Assembly (NCBI GenBank): GCA_902790495.1
Contig: CADASK010000028.1
Coordinates: forward strand, 30,528 to 94,527
Reading direction: 5' to 3'
DNA: 64,000 bases
Source: an uncultured Eubacteriales bacterium
GTDB taxonomy: Bacteria; Bacillota; Clostridia; Christensenellales; Aristaeellaceae
The notes beneath the pieces are model-generated. The model did not search any database. It was given only the letters and a program-made list of their open reading frames with translations, and was not told the DNA's origin. Below are positions 2,283-13,636 of the stretch, one piece after another (positions within the stretch are counted from its first letter, which is position 1; the number at the start of each line of letters is the position of its first letter). The translations under genes and the position numbers were made by a program.

Positions 2283-3181
2283 GAATCCTTCGCGATCCGG
2301 CCCTGGCGGGGCCGTGTGTGCTGATCCTGGGCATGTTCGACGGTGTCCACCGGGGACATCAGGCGCTGCTGATGCGCGGGGCCGAGCTGGCGGAGGCCCA
2401 CGAGCTGCCGCTGGTGGTGTGCACCTTTGAGCCGCACCCGCTGGAGGTGCTGATGCCCGACCGCGCGCCGAAGCGCCTGACTACCCCGGCCGAGCGCGCC
2501 GGGCTGATGGCCTCCTTCGGCGTGGACGATCTGTGCGTGCACGCCTTCACCCATGAGCTGGCGAGCCAGACGCCCGAGGCCTTTGCCCGGATGCTCACGG
2601 AGATCTACCAGCCCCGGTATGTGGTGTGCGGCTTCAACTTCACCTTCGGGCGCGAGGGCCGCGGCAACGGCAGCCTGCTGTGCGCCTACGGTGCGGCCCA
2701 CGGCTTTGAGACCTGCGTGATCCCCGCGGTGGAGGTGGACGGCGAGACCGTGTCCTCCACGAGGGCCCGCAAGGCGCTGGAGGCCGGCGACATCCGCGCC
2801 CTGAGCCGGATGCTCGGCCACGCCTGGACGCTGACGGGCCTGGCGGAGGATGCCGAGAGTGTTACGGGGGCTGTCCGCGTGGACGGCCCGGCGGTGAAGG
2901 CGCTGCCTGCCTGCGGGGTCTACGCCTGCTACGTGAGCCTGCGGGACGGCGAGAGCTTCCGGGCGATGGTGCAGGTCAGCCGCACGACGGAGGAGGACAG
3001 TCCGAAGACTGTGACCGCCATGCTGCTGGACGAGCGGGTGAAGCTGGCCGGCGAAATGGTGAGGCTGACCTTCATGGAGTGCCTGCGCCCGGCAAAGCGC
3101 TTTGACTCCCCGGAGGCCTACACCGCGCAGCTTCAGCAGGACGCGGAAACTGCCAAAGCGTATTTTACGCGGATTAAATAA
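2279..3181 (+). CDS. ribF: RibF family FAD synthetase with degenerate riboflavin kinase domain
   Basis: RibF normally joins an N-terminal FMN adenylyltransferase to a C-terminal riboflavin kinase. The adenylyltransferase half looks intact: GMFDGVHRGHQ near residue 18, TFEPHPLEVL, CGFNFTFGREGRG and SSTRARKALEAGDI. The kinase half keeps the overall layout (LPACGVYACYV, ECLRPAKRFDSPEAYTAQL). However, the ATP/Mg-binding GFPTAN motif and the NIGxRPTF motif are not recognisable; VSRTTEED stands where the latter is expected. This 300-residue protein may therefore make FAD from FMN but not FMN from riboflavin. The ATG start overlaps the truB stop and has a GGAG site about 8 bases upstream. Confidence 0.9.
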   Translation: MRILRDPALAGPCVLILGMFDGVHRGHQALLMRGAELAEAHELPLVVCTFEPHPLEVLMPDRAPKRLTTPAERAGLMASFGVDDLCVHAFTHELASQTPEAFARMLTEIYQPRYVVCGFNFTFGREGRGNGSLLCAYGAAHGFETCVIPAVEVDGETVSSTRARKALEAGDIRALSRMLGHAWTLTGLAEDAESVTGAVRVDGPAVKALPACGVYACYVSLRDGESFRAMVQVSRTTEEDSPKTVTAMLLDERVKLAGEMVRLTFMECLRPAKRFDSPEAYTAQLQQDAETAKAYFTRIK

Positions 3182-3230
3182 CACTCTTTCTATTCGTTCC
3201 ATATTGATCTGTTCAATATCGAGGCGGCGA

Positions 3231-3329
3231 GCGAAGGGGTGCAGGGGGCTCGGAGCGCCCGGAAAACGCCATGTTATGGCGTTTTCAGCGGAGAGCGGGC
3301 GGCAGCCCCGGACCGATCGCAAAGCCCCC
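3231..3329 (+). repeat. Family A dispersed repeat, long form, 3' half missing
   Basis: It begins with GCGAAGGGGTGCAGGGGGC and contains the long-form inner module with the perfect hairpin GAAAACGCCAT-GTT-ATGGCGTTTTC. It stops after GATCGCAAAGCCCCC. The distal GCGCC/GGCGC hairpin found in other copies is absent and the sequence passes straight into the coding region of the deaminase-like gene. The junction suggests the repeat replaced the original 5' end of that gene. Confidence 0.85.
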
Positions 3330-5768
3330 GTCGAGCTGGACCGCGCGGGGGACGCGCTGACCTACACCCTGCGCACCCCGAACCACGCCACCGGCAACCT
3401 GATCACCAATCTGGCGCGGGTCTGCGGCCTGCCGCTGAGCTTCGACCCGGACGGGCTGAAGGTCATCCGCGGGGAGATCCCCTGCTATGTGGACGACCGC
3501 AACCGCGAGGTCTTCGTGCTGCGCATGGGCGACACCAAGGTGGCCAACATCTACCCGGACGGCGCGGTGGAGCGCAAGGCCTACATCCCGGCCATCGCCA
3601 AGACGCTGATGAGCCAGACCAAGGATTACCGCCTGGACATCCGCAAGACCCTGGTGAAGACCTACATCCTCCGGGACGTGAAATTCCGCGCCGACCTGCA
3701 CACCCACATGAACGCGAACCTCGACCCGGACATCCTCATCGCCCTGGGCATCCGCCACCAGATCCGCTACCCGCTGTACTACATCAGGAAGCTGGGCCTG
3801 CGGATGACGGCGCAGCAGCGGGACGAGCTGGAGATACGCCGGGCCGCGGAGGCGGAGTGCTGGGCGGATTCCGGACTGAAGGGCAAGTACCTCGACCGGA
3901 AGATCGACGACAACACCTTCATCAACTTTGCGGATTTCATGCTCTCCAGCCCGGAGAACACGGCCTACAACCTGCCGCGCATCCGCGCCTCGCTGACCAT
4001 CCTGAAGGACGGCCAGGCGGTGTTCACCAACCTGGAGAAGGTGTACCTCTACCGCTACGTCTTCACGAAGGGACAGCCCCACGGCGACCGCGTGCCGCCG
4101 GGGAATATTGGCCGCATCCCGGACCGGGACATCGTGCGGGCGCTGGAGCGGATGGAGGCGGACGGCAGGCACCCGGTCTTCCGGGACAACACGGTCTTCG
4201 AGGACAAGCTGCTGTGGATCGCGCGCTCGGCCGCGGCCAAGGGCGTGCGCTACATGGAGATCTCCGACACGGCCCTGGTTAAGCCCGCCGAGGCGCCGCG
4301 CATGCTGGCCCAGGCGCACCGGGTGCTGCCCGCCGTGGAGCGGGAGACCGGCGTCGTCATCCGCTTCCTGGCGGGCATCCGCCGGATCCCGCTGACCCTT
4401 GTGCGGGATCAGATCGCGGCCCAGGGCACCCTGCGGGACAGCCTGCGCACGGTGCGCGCCGTGGCCTGCGACCCCTACGTGGCGGGCAGCGACATCCTGG
4501 GCGAGGAGATCAACGACATCCGCGAGCTGCAGCCGGTGATCCGCGAGCTGGTGCGCGTGGCCGGGGAGAACGAGGGCTTCACCCTGCGCATTCACGCGGG
4601 CGAGAACGATTCCCTGCGGGACAACGTGGCCAACAGCCTGCGCTGCGTGCGGGAGTCCCTGGCTCCCGGCCAGCCCATGCCGGCCCTGCGCATAGGCCAC
4701 GGCCTGTACACCGCCAACCTGGCCTCCCGCAAGGGACGCCAGCTGATCGAGGATCTGCGCGGGAGCGGGGCGGTGCTGGAGTTCCAGATCACCTCCAACG
4801 TGCGGCTCAACAACCTCTCGGAGCTCTCGCATCATCCGCTGAAGCAGTACCTGCGGGGCGGCATTCCCTGCGTGCAGGGCACGGACGGCGGCGCGCTCTA
4901 CGGCACGGACTCCATCGACGAGGAGCTGTCGCTGGAGCGCTTCCTCGAGCTGAGCCACGAGGAGCTGCTGGCCATGCGCCGGGCCGAGGACAGCGTGCGG
5001 GAGCAGGGCATGAAGGCCCTCAGCCGCAAGCGCGCGGGCTTCGCGGCCCTGGTGAAGGGCGCGGACATCGAGAGCTTCTACGCGTCGCGCATCGCGGCCG
5101 TGGAGGAGGACGGCACCGCCCTGACCGGCGGCAAGAAGCGGCTGGAGAGCGCCGCGGCCCTGGCGGAGCAGATCTGCGGGATCGACACGGGCCGAGTGCC
5201 CGTGGTGCTGCTGGGCGGCAGCTTCAACAGCGACCGCCACACCACCCGGACTCGGGAGCCCTTCCTGCGGCTCATCGACGCGCTGACAGAGCAGCTCGAC
5301 CCGGAGAAGGTCTGCTTCGTGATCGGCCACCGGCTGACGGGCTACGAGGGCTACCTGGCGCGCCAGGCTCGAGGACGCTTCCCGCTCTGGGCCATCGTGC
5401 CGACCCGCCTGCGGGAGAGCGAGGCCGAGCGCCTGCGGGAGAGCGGCGCGGGTATCCGCGTCTCCATCGAGCCCAGCGGCATGGGCGTGTACAAGTCCTT
5501 CGCCTACGAGATCTTCAAGCGCAGGCCCTCGGTGCTCATCGCCCTGGACGGCAACTCCGCCGGGGCCAACACCGTGCAGGAGGCCAAGAACGGCAAGCGC
5601 CGGTGCCGCATCTTCGTCAGCCGCCACTCGCGGCTGCTCTCGGCCAAGGCGAGGTCGCTGGAGGGCTACGTGAGCCTGATCGGCGGCGACGAGACGGACG
5701 GCGGGGACGCCCGGGCCATCGCCGAGGCGGTGGAGAGCGTCTGGCTCGAGATGCGCGGCGAGGCTTGA
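3276..5768 (+). CDS. Adenosine deaminase-like protein fused to a C-terminal Rossmann-like domain
   Basis: An 830-residue protein if read from the ATG inside the upstream repeat. Residues about 135-600 hold a metal-dependent deaminase barrel: HTH metal pair (H142, H144), HAGE (H440, catalytic E443), GHG (H475), a SN motif and TDGG (D537). All zinc ligands and the catalytic Glu are therefore present. A long insertion separates the HxH from the rest of the barrel. Residues about 20-135 form an unassigned N-terminal domain. Residues about 640-825 start with VPVVLLGGSFN and look like a Rossmann/SLOG-type nucleotide-binding fold (inference). The first 18 residues come from repeat DNA, so the native start may be lost. 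Substrate unknown; a free or signalling adenine nucleotide is plausible. A distant parallel is RdrB of RADAR defence, but no partner ATPase is present. Confidence 0.7.
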   Translation: MAFSAESGRQPRTDRKAPVELDRAGDALTYTLRTPNHATGNLITNLARVCGLPLSFDPDGLKVIRGEIPCYVDDRNREVFVLRMGDTKVANIYPDGAVERKAYIPAIAKTLMSQTKDYRLDIRKTLVKTYILRDVKFRADLHTHMNANLDPDILIALGIRHQIRYPLYYIRKLGLRMTAQQRDELEIRRAAEAECWADSGLKGKYLDRKIDDNTFINFADFMLSSPENTAYNLPRIRASLTILKDGQAVFTNLEKVYLYRYVFTKGQPHGDRVPPGNIGRIPDRDIVRALERMEADGRHPVFRDNTVFEDKLLWIARSAAAKGVRYMEISDTALVKPAEAPRMLAQAHRVLPAVERETGVVIRFLAGIRRIPLTLVRDQIAAQGTLRDSLRTVRAVACDPYVAGSDILGEEINDIRELQPVIRELVRVAGENEGFTLRIHAGENDSLRDNVANSLRCVRESLAPGQPMPALRIGHGLYTANLASRKGRQLIEDLRGSGAVLEFQITSNVRLNNLSELSHHPLKQYLRGGIPCVQGTDGGALYGTDSIDEELSLERFLELSHEELLAMRRAEDSVREQGMKALSRKRAGFAALVKGADIESFYASRIAAVEEDGTALTGGKKRLESAAALAEQICGIDTGRVPVVLLGGSFNSDRHTTRTREPFLRLIDALTEQLDPEKVCFVIGHRLTGYEGYLARQARGRFPLWAIVPTRLRESEAERLRESGAGIRVSIEPSGMGVYKSFAYEIFKRRPSVLIALDGNSAGANTVQEAKNGKRRCRIFVSRHSRLLSAKARSLEGYVSLIGGDETDGGDARAIAEAVESVWLEMRGEA

Positions 5769-6041: not shown

Positions 6042-7967
6042 ATGAAGAAGTTCCTTGCGGTACTTCTGGCTGCGATGATGGTTCTGTCCATGACCGCGTC
6101 CTTCGCCGAGGAAGCTGCGGCTCCCGCTGAGAAGGGCACTATCGTCTATGGCGCCACTACCGAAATCGGCGGCGACTTCGCCCCCGGCCCCTGGTACACG
6201 AACAACGCCACCGACAAGATGCTCCGTGATCTGAGCAACGACTATGCTACGGTCGTGACCGATCAGGGCGGCGCCTATGTCATCAACGAGACCGTGTGCG
6301 AGAGCATCGACGGCGTCGTGAATGAGGATGGCACCAAGACCTTCACCATCAAGGTGAAGGAGGGCCTCGTGTACAACAACGGCGAAGCCATCACCATCAA
6401 GGACTTTGTGTGGCCCGTGGTGTTCTCCAGCTCCAAGCTGATGACCGACCTTGGCGCGAAGCTGACCGGTTATCTGACCTATGTGGGCGGCCAGGAATAC
6501 TATGACGGCACCGCCACCGCCATCAGCGGTGTCCGCATGCTGGACGACTACACCATGTCCCTGCAGATCGTCGCGGATAAGATCCCCTATTTCTATGATA
6601 TGGCTTATGCCAGCGTGCAGGCGTTCAACCTGAAGTACTGGCTGGGCGAGGGCATCGACGTGGCGGACGACGGCGAGGGCTGCTACTTCACCGGCGACTA
6701 CACGCTGGACAGCGTGAAGGCCGCTCTGGATTACAGCCGCTTCAACGCCAGTGAGGACCGCGTCTCCGCTGGCCCCTACAACCTGGTTGAGTACGATGTG
6801 GCCGCCAAGCAGGCGACCCTGACCATCAACCCCAACTACCAGGGCAACTTCGAAGGCCAGAAGCCCTCGATCGCCAAGATCGTCGTGCTGCGCGCCGAGG
6901 ACGCCACCTGGGCCGACGCCATCAAGACCGGCGGCTTCAACTTCTATGACACCATCACCGATGGTTCTCAGATCAACACCGCCATGGACATCATGGAAGA
7001 CGACTCCGTGAAGGAAGCGCTGGGCTATGGCTTCAACTATGTCCAGTTCGACCGCGCGGGCTATGGCTTCCTGCACTTCTCCTGCGACTTTGGCCCGACC
7101 CAGTTCCCCGCTGTGCGTCATGCCATCGCCCAGCTGCTCGACCGCAATGAGTTTGCCAACACCTTCTGCCAGGGCTGGGGCGGCGTCGTCAACAGCCAGT
7201 ACGGCACCGGTCTGTGGCAGTATCAGGAAGCCGAGGAGTGGCTCAACGAGAACCTGAACACCTATCCCTACGATCCCGACGCGGCCGTGCAGACCCTGAT
7301 CGACGACGGCTGGGTGTATGCCGAGGACGGCTCCGACTATGTCGAGGGCATCCGCTGGAAGAAGGTTACCGCTGAGGAAGCCGGCACCTATCAGTACAAC
7401 GTGACCCTGGCTGACGGCACCATCCTGATGCCCCTGAAGATGGACTGGTCCTCTTCTGACGGCAACTCCGTGTCCGACCTGCTGAGCGTCATGCTGGCCA
7501 ATGGCCCGCAGACCGCCGCCGCCGGTATCGAGATCAACCAGCAGGTGATGACCTTCACCGAGCTGCTGAACTACTACTATCGCGACGCGACCCAGGGCGA
7601 CAAGTACGGTGTGCCCACCTACTGCCTGTTCAACCTGGCCAACAACTTCAACCCCGCCTTCGACCAGTCCTATGAGTGGACCCAGGATCCCGACATGATC
7701 GCTCAGGGCTACAACGTGAGCCGTCTGATGGATCCTGAGATGGATCGCCTCTCCATGGAAATGGTGTACGGCGTGGACAGCACGGACACCGAGAAGTACA
7801 TGGATATCTGGAAGCAGTATGAGCTCCGCTGGAACGAGCAGCTGCCCCAGGTGCCGCTGTACAGCAACGTGTACATCTCCATGTATCCCGAGTGGCTGGA
7901 GAACTACAACCAGGATTCCTTCTGGAACTTTGAGCAGGCGATCCTGTACGCGACTGTCGCTGAGTAA
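6042..7967 (+). CDS. ABC transporter substrate-binding protein, family 5 (peptide/nickel type)
   Basis: A 641-residue exported solute-binding protein, longer than the usual 520-560. It opens with a classical signal peptide MKKFLAVLLAAMMVLS ending at SFA-EE. The family 5 pattern follows, with IKVKEGLVYNNGEAITIKDF (residues around 110) and GPYNLVEYD (around 245). The ligand cannot be told from the sequence. The ATG was chosen because AGGAGG lies 9 bases upstream and the signal peptide begins there; longer in-frame readings add only charged residues. Its codon choice is less GC-biased than its neighbours, as expected for an abundant protein. The 270 bases upstream are AT-richer, with no convincing promoter hexamers. 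The DppBCDF genes follow. Confidence 0.92.
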   Translation: MKKFLAVLLAAMMVLSMTASFAEEAAAPAEKGTIVYGATTEIGGDFAPGPWYTNNATDKMLRDLSNDYATVVTDQGGAYVINETVCESIDGVVNEDGTKTFTIKVKEGLVYNNGEAITIKDFVWPVVFSSSKLMTDLGAKLTGYLTYVGGQEYYDGTATAISGVRMLDDYTMSLQIVADKIPYFYDMAYASVQAFNLKYWLGEGIDVADDGEGCYFTGDYTLDSVKAALDYSRFNASEDRVSAGPYNLVEYDVAAKQATLTINPNYQGNFEGQKPSIAKIVVLRAEDATWADAIKTGGFNFYDTITDGSQINTAMDIMEDDSVKEALGYGFNYVQFDRAGYGFLHFSCDFGPTQFPAVRHAIAQLLDRNEFANTFCQGWGGVVNSQYGTGLWQYQEAEEWLNENLNTYPYDPDAAVQTLIDDGWVYAEDGSDYVEGIRWKKVTAEEAGTYQYNVTLADGTILMPLKMDWSSSDGNSVSDLLSVMLANGPQTAAAGIEINQQVMTFTELLNYYYRDATQGDKYGVPTYCLFNLANNFNPAFDQSYEWTQDPDMIAQGYNVSRLMDPEMDRLSMEMVYGVDSTDTEKYMDIWKQYELRWNEQLPQVPLYSNVYISMYPEWLENYNQDSFWNFEQAILYATVAE

Positions 7968-8163: not shown

Positions 8164-9183
8164 ATGGGCAAATACATCCTCAAGCGTCTGGGCTACATTG
8201 TGGTGGTCTTCCTCATTGTATCCCTGCTGATGTACTCACTGTACAACCTGATACCCTCCGACCCCGCCCGGCAGGAGCTGGAGCCCCAGCGCCGGAACAT
8301 GAAGCCGGACGAGTACGAGCAGGCGTATCAGCGCTTGCGGCAGCAGCTGGGTCTGGACGATCCTCTGATCGTTCGATACTTGCGATGGATCGGGTTATGG
8401 AAGGGTCTGGACGGACGCTTTGACGGCCTGCTCGAGGGCAACTTCGGCTATTCCAATCTGTACAAGCAGAATGTGGTGGACGTCATCAAGGCCCCGATGA
8501 GCAATACGATCTTCATCAACATCTTCTCGACCATCCTGTCCCTGGGCATCACCATCCCACTGGGCATCTACTGCGCGGTGCACAAGGGCAAGCGCTTTGA
8601 CCAGGCGACCCAGGTGGTCACGATGCTGGGCTACTCGATCCCGATCTACATCATCGCGCTGGTGTTCATGTTCCTGTTCTGCATCGTGTGGCGCATCTTC
8701 CCCGTGATGGGCACCAAGACGGCGGGCGCGACCTACACCAGCAGCTGGGACGAGTTTGTGGATAAGCTGTACCACATCACCCTGCCGGTGATCGTCATGA
8801 CCTTCGGCTCCCTGGGCGGCATGACCCGCTATGTCCGCTCGGCCATGATCGACGCCCTGAGCATGGACTATGTGCGCACGGCCCGCGCCAAGGGCGTCAA
8901 GGAGAAGGTCGTCATCTACTCCCACGCCTGGCGCAACGCCCTGTTGCCCGTCATCACCTCGATCCTGGGCTGGTTCCTGTCCATCTTCTCCGGCTCCGTG
9001 ATCATCGAGAACACCTTCTCCCTCAACGGCATGGGCAAGCTGTACTGGCAGGGCCTGAACAACCTGGACTTCGAGCTGGTGCTCGCCATCCAGATGTTCT
9101 ACTCCGTAGTGTCCCTGGTTGGCTCCCTGCTCATCGACATCAGCTATGGTCTGGTGGACCCGCGCGTGCGTGTGGACAAATAA
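8164..9183 (+). CDS. ABC transporter permease, DppB/OppB type
   Basis: A 339-residue inner-membrane permease of the peptide/nickel family. The N-terminus MGKYILKRLGYIVVVFLIVS is the typical first transmembrane helix of DppB. A hydrophilic segment with QQLGLDDPL follows, then about five more helices. The cytoplasmic EAA loop reads DYVRTARAKGVKEKVV and contacts the ATPases. The start has AGGGGAG 7 bases upstream. Downstream, dppC follows after an 18-base gap holding GGAGGAGGAG. Confidence 0.94.
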   Translation: MGKYILKRLGYIVVVFLIVSLLMYSLYNLIPSDPARQELEPQRRNMKPDEYEQAYQRLRQQLGLDDPLIVRYLRWIGLWKGLDGRFDGLLEGNFGYSNLYKQNVVDVIKAPMSNTIFINIFSTILSLGITIPLGIYCAVHKGKRFDQATQVVTMLGYSIPIYIIALVFMFLFCIVWRIFPVMGTKTAGATYTSSWDEFVDKLYHITLPVIVMTFGSLGGMTRYVRSAMIDALSMDYVRTARAKGVKEKVVIYSHAWRNALLPVITSILGWFLSIFSGSVIIENTFSLNGMGKLYWQGLNNLDFELVLAIQMFYSVVSLVGSLLIDISYGLVDPRVRVDK

Positions 9184-9201: not shown

Positions 9202-11067
9202 ATGGCAAACAATCAGAAAAAAGGCTTCTTCCTCACCCGCTGGTTCCGCCGCGCCTTCATGGGCAGCGACCAGGAGGTCCGGGACATCATGCAGGAAGAG
9301 CAGGTGCAGACACCGTTTAAGACCATGGCGAAGAATTTCTTTGCCAAGCACACGGTGCGCATCGGCCTGGGCGGCTTTATCCTGGTTTTCCTCTTTGTAC
9401 TGATCGGCCCGAGGTACTGGGTGCTCGACCTGTCTGAGCAGGATTCCACGCTGATCAACCTGCCCCCGTCCAGCGATTTCATGTCGGTGCCCAAGGAGAT
9501 GCAGGGGAATATCGTGGACCTGGCCGCGGGCAAGACCTACGGCATCGGCCTGGACAAGAACGGCAAGCTTCACACCTGGGGCTACACCCGCATCACGGAG
9601 AAGGTCAACCTGGCCAACATCCCGGATGAGGTGCAGGCCGCCAACATCGTGCAGCTGGCCGCCGGCGAGGATCACTGCGTGGCGCTGGACGACAACGGCC
9701 AGATCTACGTGTGGGGCAACACCCGCCTGCAGCAGGGCAAGTTCTCCTCGGATATGACCAAGGCCATGAAGAACGCCGCAAAGGGCGAGAGCGACCCGAG
9801 CTGGGACATCATCCAGATCGAGGCGAGCAACCAGTTCTCGGCAGCGCTGTCCTCCGACGGCACGCTGTACCTCTGGGGCAACACCAACATGGCGGATATC
9901 AAGCTCCGCAGCCAGTACCAGGGCAACATCGCCAAGGTGGCCCTCACGGCCAACGAGTACATCTGCCTGATGAAGGACGGCACGGTGGCCTACACAGGCT
10001 ACAAGGACAAGGGCTCGCCCTTCGCGGCCATTCCCGCCGGCCTGGAGGGCAAGACCGTGGTGGACATCGCGGCGACCTCCGGCTCCATGGCAGCCCTGAC
10101 CTCCGACGGCGAGGTGTTCGTGTGGGGCTCCTCCACCGCCGGCGAGAAGAACGTTCCCGCCTTCAGCGGCAAGCCTGTGGCCATCTATGGCGGACGCTAC
10201 CACTATGACGCCCTGATGGAAGACGGCTCCGTGGTGGCCTGGGGTAACAACAAGTACCACCAGGTCGACGTGCCCGGCGGCCTGAGCGGCATCACGAAGA
10301 TCTACACCGGCAACTTTGCCAACTACGCGCTGGACGCCTCCGGCGCCGTGCACACCTGGGGCCTGAAGGGTTTCACCCTCGGCACGGACAACCTGGGCCG
10401 CGACCTGCTGACCCGTATTGTCAACGGCGGCCGCGTCACCATGACCGTCGGCGCCATCTCCGTCGTCATCGCGACGATCATCGGCGTGCTGCTGGGCGGC
10501 CTGGCCGGCTACTTTGGCGGCAAGGCGGACCTGCTGATCATGCGTATCGCCGAGATCGTGGGCGGCCTGCCCTTCATCCCCTTCGCCATGATCCTCTCCG
10601 CGGTCATCGGCACGCGGCTGGACCCGACCCAGAGAATGTACCTGATCATGGTGGTTCTGGGCATCCTCTCCTGGGTGCCGACCTGCCGCCTGGTGCGCGC
10701 GCAGATCCTGGCCCAGCGCGAGATGGAGTACGTCACCGCCGCCAAAGCCATGGGCATCAAGGAGTGGCAGATCGTGTTCCGCCACATCCTGCCCAACGTC
10801 ATCTCCCTGCTGCTGGTGTCCATGACGCTGGATTTCGCCACCTGCATGCTGACGGAGTCGACGCTGAGCTACCTCGGCTTCGGCATTCCGCTGCCCACGC
10901 CGACCTGGGGCAACCTGCTCACCGGCGCGAACAACTCGGTGGTCATCCAGCAGTACTGGTGGCAATGGGTGTTCCCGGCGGCCATCTTCGGCGTGTGCAC
11001 CATCTGTATCAACATGATTGGCGACGGCCTGCGGGACGCGGTCGATCCCAAGTCCCAGGAACGCTAA
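9202..11067 (+). CDS. ABC permease, DppC type, with an inserted seven-repeat RCC1-like beta-propeller
   Basis: A 621-residue protein, about twice the usual DppC length. Residues 1-53 are cytoplasmic and 54-70 are transmembrane helix 1. In ordinary DppC a short external loop then leads to the GTDxLGRD motif. Here residues about 101-390 hold seven RCC1-type repeats, each with an IVxLAAG-like strand, an AL-DG turn and a VWGN-like strand (WG near 126, 171, 225, 308, 347 and 386; the fourth repeat has YTG). Seven repeats fit one closed propeller. Blade seven runs directly into FTLGTDNLGRDLL (391-403), after which the five-helix core and the EAA loop EYVTAAKAMGIKEWQ (509-523) are normal. The frame is uninterrupted, so this is a genuine fusion. 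Topology places the propeller outside the membrane, where it could meet the binding protein or a cell-surface ligand. Confidence 0.93.
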   Translation: MANNQKKGFFLTRWFRRAFMGSDQEVRDIMQEEQVQTPFKTMAKNFFAKHTVRIGLGGFILVFLFVLIGPRYWVLDLSEQDSTLINLPPSSDFMSVPKEMQGNIVDLAAGKTYGIGLDKNGKLHTWGYTRITEKVNLANIPDEVQAANIVQLAAGEDHCVALDDNGQIYVWGNTRLQQGKFSSDMTKAMKNAAKGESDPSWDIIQIEASNQFSAALSSDGTLYLWGNTNMADIKLRSQYQGNIAKVALTANEYICLMKDGTVAYTGYKDKGSPFAAIPAGLEGKTVVDIAATSGSMAALTSDGEVFVWGSSTAGEKNVPAFSGKPVAIYGGRYHYDALMEDGSVVAWGNNKYHQVDVPGGLSGITKIYTGNFANYALDASGAVHTWGLKGFTLGTDNLGRDLLTRIVNGGRVTMTVGAISVVIATIIGVLLGGLAGYFGGKADLLIMRIAEIVGGLPFIPFAMILSAVIGTRLDPTQRMYLIMVVLGILSWVPTCRLVRAQILAQREMEYVTAAKAMGIKEWQIVFRHILPNVISLLLVSMTLDFATCMLTESTLSYLGFGIPLPTPTWGNLLTGANNSVVIQQYWWQWVFPAAIFGVCTICINMIGDGLRDAVDPKSQER

Positions 11068-11082: not shown

Positions 11083-12061
<979 letters not shown>

Positions 12062-12081
<20 letters not shown>

Positions 12082-13636
12082 GCGCAAACCCCTTCTGCGC
12101 ATCAGCAACCTGAAACAGTATTTCCCGCTGAAGACCAAGGGCCTCTACGTCAAGGCCAACGACGGGATCACCCTGGATATCTACGAGGGTGAGACGCTGG
12201 GTCTGGTGGGCGAGAGCGGCTGCGGCAAGTCGACCTTCGGCCGGACGCTGCTGCAGCTCTACCGCCAGACCGACGGCCGCACCATGTACTACGGCCGCAC
12301 CCTGGACGACATCGCCCCCAAGTACGTGGGCGACACCATCCGCACGCTGGACAAGCGCCGCAAGCAGATGAAGGAGCTGGAGGCCAGGCGGGACGCCGTG
12401 CAGCGCGAGTACGACGCGATGCAGGACGGCAAGGAAAAGTACGCCAAGGCCAACGACCTGGAGCAGGCCAAGAAGGAGGCCAAGGACGCCTTCCTGGACA
12501 TGGCCAACCTGATCGGCGGCTTCCTGACCGTGGACGATCTGGCCCCCGTGACGGAGGCCTTCATGGGCACCTACCGCCTCTCCTCCAAGCAGCATGACGC
12601 GGAGGAGCGCCAGGAGACCGCGACCCTCAACCTGGAGGAAGCGAAGTTCAACCTGGAGCAGGCGAAGAAGGATCCGAGGAAGGCCAGCAGGGTTGCCGGC
12701 CTGGAGACCAAGGTCGCCAAGCTGCAGGCCAAGTGCGACGAGATCGACCGGGAAATCGAAGAGGTGAAGGCGGAGCTGGTGGAGGCCCGCGCGAAGATCG
12801 ACGAGATGCGCAAGCCCTACGCCAACGACGCGGAGTTCCAGCGCGTGGAGGCCTACCGCGACGACGGCATCGACCTGGCGCGCCTGGAGTACAACGAGAT
12901 CCGCGAGCTGCGCAGCGATCTGCAGATGATCTTCCAGGATCCCTACTCCTCGCTGAACCCCCGCATGACGGTGGGCCAGATCATCTCTGAGGGCATGATT
13001 GCCCACAACCAGTACAAGAAGAACGACGAGAGACTGCAGGAGGCCATCATCAAGGTGATGGACGACGCGGGTCTGGCGGCCTACTTCATCCACCGCTACC
13101 CGCACCAGTTCTCCGGCGGCCAGCGCCAGCGCATCGGCATCGCCCGGTCCCTGGCTGTGCACCCGAAGTTCGTGGTGTGCGACGAGGCGGTCTCCGCCCT
13201 GGACGTGTCCATCCAGAGCCAGATCATCAACCTGCTGCAGGACCTGAAGGAGCAGCAGAACCTGACCTACCTGTTCATCACCCATGACCTGAGCGTGGTG
13301 AAGTACATCTCCGACCGCATCGGCGTGATGTACCTGGGTTCCATGGTGGAGCTGGCGGAGAGCCAGGAGCTGTTCGACCATCCGCGTCACCCCTACACGG
13401 AGGCGCTGATGAACGCCATCCCCACCACCGACATCGACAGCAACCGCAAGATCGAGGTGCTGGAGGGCGACATCCCGAGCCCTGTCAACCCGCCCAAGGG
13501 CTGCAAGTTCCACACCCGCTGCAAGTACTGCACGGAGATCTGCGAGCACATGATCCCGCCGCTGGTGGAGGACAGCCCGAACCACTTCGTGGCCTGCCAC
13601 CATATTCTGCGCGACAAGGATGAGGAGAAAGCCTGA
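12062..13636 (+). CDS. ABC transporter ATP-binding protein, DppF/OppF type, with a ~200-residue coiled-coil insertion
   Basis: A 524-residue ATPase against about 320 in normal DppF. Walker A GESGCGKST lies at residues 50-58. Between residues about 80 and 282, where a normal protein needs only some 30 residues to reach the Q-loop, there is a highly charged helical insert. It reads LDKRRKQMKELEARRDAVQ, continues through a short hydrophobic stretch (MANLIGGFLTVDDL), and ends in a second helix pair around AKLQAKCDEIDREIEEVKAE. The ATPase resumes at DLQMIFQDPYSSLNP (286-300), signature FSGGQRQR (350-357), Walker B VVCDEAVSALD and the C-terminal Cys cluster CKFHTRCKYC. Start: AGGAGG lies 8 bases upstream of the ATG inside dppD. 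The insert would project from the helical side of the nucleotide-binding domain (inference). Confidence 0.93.

Follow-up and report, generated by a model that had tools for sequence, protein, structure and literature searches.

Extracellular recognition in type I ABC importers is thought to be left mostly to the binding protein, and the best-studied outer domain of a permease subunit is MalF-P2, which lies between TM3 and TM4. Proteins with RCC1-like repeats were reportedly surveyed by Stevens and Paoli in 2008. MalF-P2 is described as spanning residues 91-271, with one segment directly touching MalE (PMC3150292), and in the account given of the E. coli peptide permeases the TM1-TM2 regions of DppB and DppC are periplasmic, DppA caps both permeases and a scoop motif of DppB enters the DppA cleft (PMC12136057). 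Among open-access full texts, judged by title and the start of the abstract, no description of RCC1 or propeller domains together with ABC transporters or permeases was found; protein databases may already list the combination.

The window analysed here, a stretch of DNA of 64,000 nucleotides, encodes a permease that resembles the described OppC/DppC permeases (E. coli OppBCDF, 8z21, and DppBCDF, 8z1v-8z1z; M. tuberculosis OppABCD, 8j5q; NCBIfam Opp4C) in its core, its six TM segments and its operon partners. It departs from them in carrying a 289-residue propeller, whereas in some ordinary members the PPS-like and GTD motifs are separated by just five residues. The propeller has its fold in common with BLIP-II and RCC1 proteins; however, BLIP-II is described as a free secreted inhibitor (PMC9218822), and the window propeller is a domain within a membrane permease. 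As with MalF-P2 (PMC3150292), one permease subunit in a type I importer would bear a folded extracytoplasmic region within a loop, although fold and loop differ (TM1-TM2 here) and its contact with the binding protein is putative. Like the DppB scoop motif, it would be a TM1-proximal periplasmic element of a peptide permease, the scoop being a short helix-loop-helix in the other subunit and the propeller a folded domain (PMC12136057). A seven-bladed propeller in the OppC-type permease of a five-gene oligopeptide-type importer operon occurs across Bacillota.

Propeller fold, insertion site and topology

The OppC/DppC-type permease gene occupies window positions 9202..11067 on the + strand, encodes 621 aa and has an intact frame with 0 internal stops. 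Pfam, AlphaFold2 and Foldseek agree in placing a seven-bladed RCC1/BLIP-II-type propeller at residues 101-389 (9502..10368, +). In the Pfam search, RCC1_2 (PF13540) matches in six stretches (120.3 bits, cut-off 22) and RCC1 scores 27.2 bits against a cut-off of 21.7, with repeats starting at about residue 101, while WD40_RLD, at 128.3 bits, remains under its own cut-off of 150. The permease core, TM2-TM6 (residues 390-621; 10369..11064, +), is identified by OppC/DppC sequence and fold matches and by BPD_transp_1 at residues 428-617 (116.2 bits, cut-off 26.4); OppC_N at residues 37-89 falls slightly under its cut-off (22.2 bits against 23.9). The top NCBIfam model, Opp4C, covers residues 391-617 only, and its 278.9 bits lie under the equivalog cut-off of 350, so that the permease stands apart from the Opp4C equivalog. 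In the sequence comparison with solved chains, the permease part matches OppC and DppC best, and BLIP-II and RCC1-type proteins follow for the insert.

The AlphaFold2 model of the permease, built on a 51-sequence alignment, has a mean pLDDT of 80.9, with ten-residue means of 85-94 over residues 101-390 and 58-71 over residues 501-590. The pTM is only 0.69, and the model does not fix how propeller and membrane part are placed relative to each other. Seven blades are predicted at residues 104-387, each of three DSSP strands except blade 4, which has two. The top Foldseek match is BLIP-II (E 4.7e-19; 28% identity; TM-score 0.77 by BLIP-II, i.e. target, length), E. coli OppC (8z21_B; 40% identity over the core) ranks next and then DppC, and UVR8, an RCC1-type propeller, is also among the structural matches. 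The modelled fold is in this way confirmed, and with it two proposals of the preliminary description, namely that residues of about 101-390 (9502-10371) are seven RCC1-type repeats, which was right to a residue or two, and that they close into a propeller.

The insert begins beyond TM1 (residues 50-72; 9349..9417, +), for which the AlphaFold2 helix covers 50-72 and the hydropathy peak 51-69, and ends before TM2, which starts at residue 402 in the model. In the window permease, PPSSDFMSVPKEMQG leads into the propeller and the conserved junction GLKGFTLGTDNLGRD (residues 387-401; 10360..10404, +) leads out of it, from the last blade to the permease core. In alignment A1, the junction positions G387, G390, G394, D396, G399, R400 and D401 are invariant and L388, K389, T395 and L398 are at least 90% conserved. 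Ordinary OppCs have from TM1 onward a short linker, e.g. PPSRSHLFGTDELGRD (L123) or PPGGAHPFGTDKLGRD (L124), which is longer in others. The permease motifs are conserved in relatives, with E509, A513 and A514 invariant in the same alignment; A1 comprises 50 of the 75 loci described below and a further alignment, A2, 45 loci. An insertion between TM1 and the GTDNLGRD motif with frame and permease motifs kept, as initially described, is thus borne out by the reading frame, the AlphaFold2 model and conservation in relatives.

Topology was approached through hydropathy, charge and analogy. Hydropathy peaks and AlphaFold2 helices agree on six TM segments; all six peaks lie outside the insert, and none is found in residues 100-390, where the maximum is 0.96. 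The N-terminal 49 residues are net positive (9 K/R vs 5 D/E) and the propeller is net negative (23 K/R vs 29 D/E). By analogy with the coupling-helix position described for peptide permeases (PMC12136057), an EAA-type coupling-helix region would lie between TM4 and TM5, the residue assignment being our own; with that region cytoplasmic, the TM1-TM2 loop would consequently be outside. The propeller is predicted to be extracytoplasmic, its side of the membrane being read from topology alone, and the earlier placement outside the membrane agrees with the six peaks, the charge pattern and the periplasmic TM1-TM2 regions reported for DppB and DppC (PMC12136057).

Operon context, distribution and origin

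The permease gene is the third of five on the + strand. A binding-protein gene of the oligopeptide type (SBP_bac_5, 90.5 bits in Pfam; 6042..7967) is followed by an OppB/DppB-type permease (8164..9183; probably starting at residue 35 of its listed ORF; BPD_transp_1 134.7 bits; Opp4B at 254.7 bits, under the cut-off of 450), and the propeller permease is followed by an OppD-type ATPase (11083..12081; ABC_tran and oligo_HPY; PRK09473 OppD at 393.6 bits, under the cut-off of 575) and an OppF-type ATPase with a long insert (12062..13636; likely start at residue 8; Pfam and NCBIfam). Further upstream, an 888-aa frame at 3102-5768 carries an adenosine deaminase domain (56.2 bits). Among loci L036-L109, taken from matches of at least 40% identity and counted wherever the contig allows, OppB lies directly upstream of the propeller OppC in 70/70, OppD downstream in 69/69, OppF next in 66/66, and a binding protein upstream in 58/59, the single miss being L108.

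The binding protein has 641 aa from its likely start, with a signal peptide that has no lipobox cysteine, and was modelled by AlphaFold2 with a pLDDT of 90.9. Oligopeptides are its likely cargo, because AppA of B. subtilis (1xoc) is the first Foldseek match and OppA-, DppA- and NikA-type proteins of the same fold come next; a nickel-type cargo is also possible. All seven SBP_bac_5 proteins of the window's genome (L131-L137) are without a clear lipobox cysteine (L135 is ambiguous), and Lgt-family genes are present there.

The preliminary description had suggested that the propeller could dock an unusually long binding protein, and that co-occurrence of the two be tested. The protein is indeed longer than the 50 Foldseek targets listed (477-602), and docking as such keeps indirect support from the co-conserved operon and from the excess distance correlation reported below. 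The tie to length was given up: in all 14 stretches viewed (8.5-12 kb; L214-L227), relatives of similar length, at 29-37% identity, have no propeller OppC with them. The author chose these stretches, which mostly cover the downstream side, from 64 rows of at most 37% identity, and they include none of the rows already known to adjoin a propeller OppC. Since long relatives occur without a propeller OppC, the length of the binding protein does not by itself go with the propeller, and a long binding protein as propeller-specific partner was rejected. Thirteen of these stretches hold no OppC-like match and look like orphans, and L217 has an OppC without a propeller. Within the family, 30 genomes carry a binding protein at least 51% identical to that of the window, the next matches falling to 37%; in 27 of them it lies on the same contig as a propeller OppC, and in three (G105, G019, G036) on another contig. 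In a second propeller group of the family, with an OppC of about 40% identity, a binding protein of 31-37% identity shares the contig in 7/10 genomes, and none was found at E <= 1e-50 on the propeller-OppC contig of G029, G034 and G179.

The OppF insert (12293-12865, about residues 85-275 of the listed ORF) sits between Walker A and the Q-loop. This stretch measures 214-231 residues in 62/63 propeller-operon OppFs, leaving out L038, which is cut short, and OppFs of at most 50% identity, e.g. L065 and L098; for comparison, it measures 39 and 44 in two other-operon OppFs (L076, L036) and 47 in the propeller-operon L100. The OppF of an ordinary operon in the window's genome (L157/L183) aligns over nearly its whole length and that of L173 does not. 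Because a long OppF occurs in the ordinary operon L157/L183, and not in L173, the insert is not propeller-specific, and the idea that it is a co-adapted cytoplasmic partner of the propeller was dropped.

A scan of GTDB contigs yielded 75 loci, with the whole protein in one frame in 68, at 47-88% identity; the others are five partial loci (L102-L105, L109), one split (L101) and one permease-only match (L110). In L101 (7980-9798) the propeller permease lies in two overlapping frames in a MAG, for which an assembly error or a broken gene is possible. Matches across propeller and permease occur in 37/200 genomes of the family, with three more partial or split (G019, G036, G125), and, at E <= 1e-70, in 17/391 of the class and 14/398 of the phylum, both counts including the window's own genome; the class carriers G223 and G241 are single-contig genomes. 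G105 has two propeller OppC matches, one full (C139) and a second over residues 59-621 at 54% identity (C318). The 75 loci are nearly all from MAGs, named Clostridia, Clostridiales, Christensenella, Erysipelotrichaceae, Oscillospiraceae, Ruminococcus or Tissierellia; a few, at 63-76% identity, are labelled Chloroflexi, Anaerolineaceae or Petrimonas, labels that binning or naming errors may explain. Among 3328 plasmid records with a match, there is none in which 80% of the query is covered at a single site. Homologues with the insert at the same site, for which a search had been suggested, are thus plentiful, and an assembly chimera or chance was rejected, the whole protein being present in 68 of 75 loci and the arrangement being carried by many genomes of family, class and phylum.

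In a tree of the permease core, the 45 propeller rows all lie on one side of a single branch (SH-aLRT 100), with no propeller-less row among them. Of 119 distinct rows, the tree uses 69; propeller rows were left out if they had fewer than 215 residues or exceeded 90% identity to a retained row. Most rows come from searches with the propeller protein, and permease-only matches in the family are at most 48% identical, save a contig-edge fragment in G019. The tree is read without a fixed root, and several ordinary rows are long-branched, which makes their places and the deeper order unsure. Because the 45 propeller rows share one side of one branch, the simplest reading of the tree is that the propeller was acquired once and kept since. 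No donor gene was found in the window's genome, whose draft has 78 contigs and a completeness of 94.5%, as the permease is the only RCC1_2 match there; the other OppCs of this genome are without a propeller.

Evolutionary coupling and the possible role of the propeller

Positions conserved above 0.95 number 38/289 in the propeller vs 101/232 in the core, three of the 38 lying in a stretch that few sequences have. Mean distances are 0.74 for the propeller, 0.27 for the permease core and 0.80 for OppC residues 35-100. Propeller dN/dS is 0.11-0.48 in 6/8 pairs; in the other two, synonymous sites are saturated and dS is not computable. The propeller thus evolves faster than the core yet under constraint, and its far lower conservation means that its partner may vary. 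Residues that have a frequency of at least 0.92 and depart from the repeat consensus (D157, H158, Q211, R332, H334, N374 and Y375) fall within the first hairpin of blades 2, 3, 6 and 7 or directly behind it and are candidate contacts for the binding protein; listed residues 192, 193 and 195 fall in a stretch present in few sequences only. H158 and H334 stand at positions where RCC1 repeats usually have His, and may for this reason be structural.

Pairwise distances were compared across 40 of 50 operons, near-identical ones having been dropped. Given OppD and the OppF core alone, the correlations with the binding protein are nearly equal for propeller (0.72) and permease core (0.67). Given OppD, the OppF core, OppB and the permease core, the propeller retains a partial r of 0.33 with the binding protein, a value reached in 0 of 2000 permutations, the controls being 0.035 for the permease core, 0.05 for OppC residues 35-100 and 0.08 for the fast-evolving OppF insert. 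Propeller and OppB show a partial r of 0.40 given OppD, the OppF core and the permease core (computed as a coefficient, with no permutation), and the strongest link is that of OppB with the binding protein, at 0.81, or 0.60 with the core added. Propeller and OppF insert correlate at 0.09 given OppD and the OppF core and at 0.19 with OppB and the permease core added; for whole OppF the value is 0.01 or 0.21, depending on the controls. This evidence, indirect and weak as a test, suggests that propeller distances follow those of the binding protein and of OppB more closely than background, a pattern to which shared rate effects could contribute.

Tentatively, and as a reading that could well be right, the propeller may be a platform on the outer side of the membrane for docking the cognate binding protein or for gating, in the manner of MalF-P2. 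It would stand beside the outer mouth of the OppB-OppC pore, tied to TM2 and the core by the short conserved connector GLKG(F/Y), and would hold the binding protein above the pore or orient it there, helping close off the cavity or coupling docking to ATPase activation. With another fold, it would do what MalF-P2 does for MalE and the DppB scoop motif for DppA.

The main rival, which we consider unlikely, is a receptor for some other partner, for instance a protease that is secreted or sits on the surface, a component of the cell wall, or some large peptide or protein, by which a source of peptides would be brought to the importer. Its attraction is that the nearest structural relative, BLIP-II, is described as a secreted binder of beta-lactamases (PMC9218822) and that the propeller changes faster than the core (0.74 vs 0.27), as would a domain following a variable partner. 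However, no dedicated partner gene is linked to the operon, the largest cluster of flanking ORFs of at least 150 aa covering 7/74 loci in flanks of at most 8 kb that are often cut, and the propeller distances follow the binding protein and OppB. A regulatory sensor, in which a ligand on the propeller alters transport activity or signals, is less probable again: the short connector to the core would suit it, and UVR8, the RCC1-type propeller among the structural matches, is a light sensor, but no linked regulator gene was found among the same flanking ORFs of the 74 loci. For the ligand sensing and the surface anchoring suggested in the preliminary description, the analysis turned up evidence neither in favour nor in opposition.

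That the insertion is near-neutral, a propeller tolerated with no specific role, seems very improbable. Other inserts in this loop would fit such tolerance: another OppC group has a large, unrelated one, and that of L120 is about 100 residues long; however, no member of the 45-row propeller group in the tree is without the propeller, and the constraint seen in dN/dS, the invariant residues and the phylum-wide spread speak against it. Least credible of all is that the propeller replaces a lipid anchor, tethering a lipobox-less binding protein that would else be lost from a single-membrane cell, a reading suited to the missing lipobox cysteine in the window's binding protein and its close relatives but opposed by the lipobox of 22/55 propeller-operon binding proteins (by pattern match corrected by reading, with the false match L073 removed, L074 added and the ambiguous L055 and L063 counted as without) and by the window's genome, whose only RCC1_2 protein is the window's permease and whose six further SBP_bac_5 proteins are also without a clear lipobox (L135 ambiguous), so that lipobox and propeller vary independently.

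A second insert in the same loop

An unrelated large insert occupies the TM1-TM2 loop of eleven distinct OppC genes (L111-L119, L121, L170). Ahead of the core these have 360-525 residues of stop-to-stop frame, and their motif reads GTDxxG(M/F/Y)D instead of GTDxxGRD; in the permease-core tree the 11 rows of this class, so labelled by the author's reading, lie on one side of another branch (support 99). In the one member scanned with Pfam (L168:5788-7548), only OppC_N and BPD_transp_1 exceed their cut-offs, DUF7287 being sub-threshold, and the neighbouring binding protein of that operon has 805 aa. By eye, the insert appears to consist of about four repeats. Reading long open frames as inserts proved wrong for L004 and L122-L125, which are ordinary OppCs.

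The extracytoplasmic TM1-TM2 loop of OppC may be viewed as an evolutionary port in which Bacillota installed large recognition domains at least twice, the BLIP-II-type propeller and, independently of it, the unrelated repeat-like domain, a view that we regard as possible but somewhat more doubtful than a docking or gating role of the propeller. As a widespread and probably once-acquired domain, the propeller offers a natural experiment on how a permease subunit captures, orients or gates its binding protein, and, being a discrete domain, it could be deleted for testing its role. If the view of the loop as a port is true, there would be a class of peptide importers in which the permease too, and not the binding protein alone, recognises and gates an extracellular partner.
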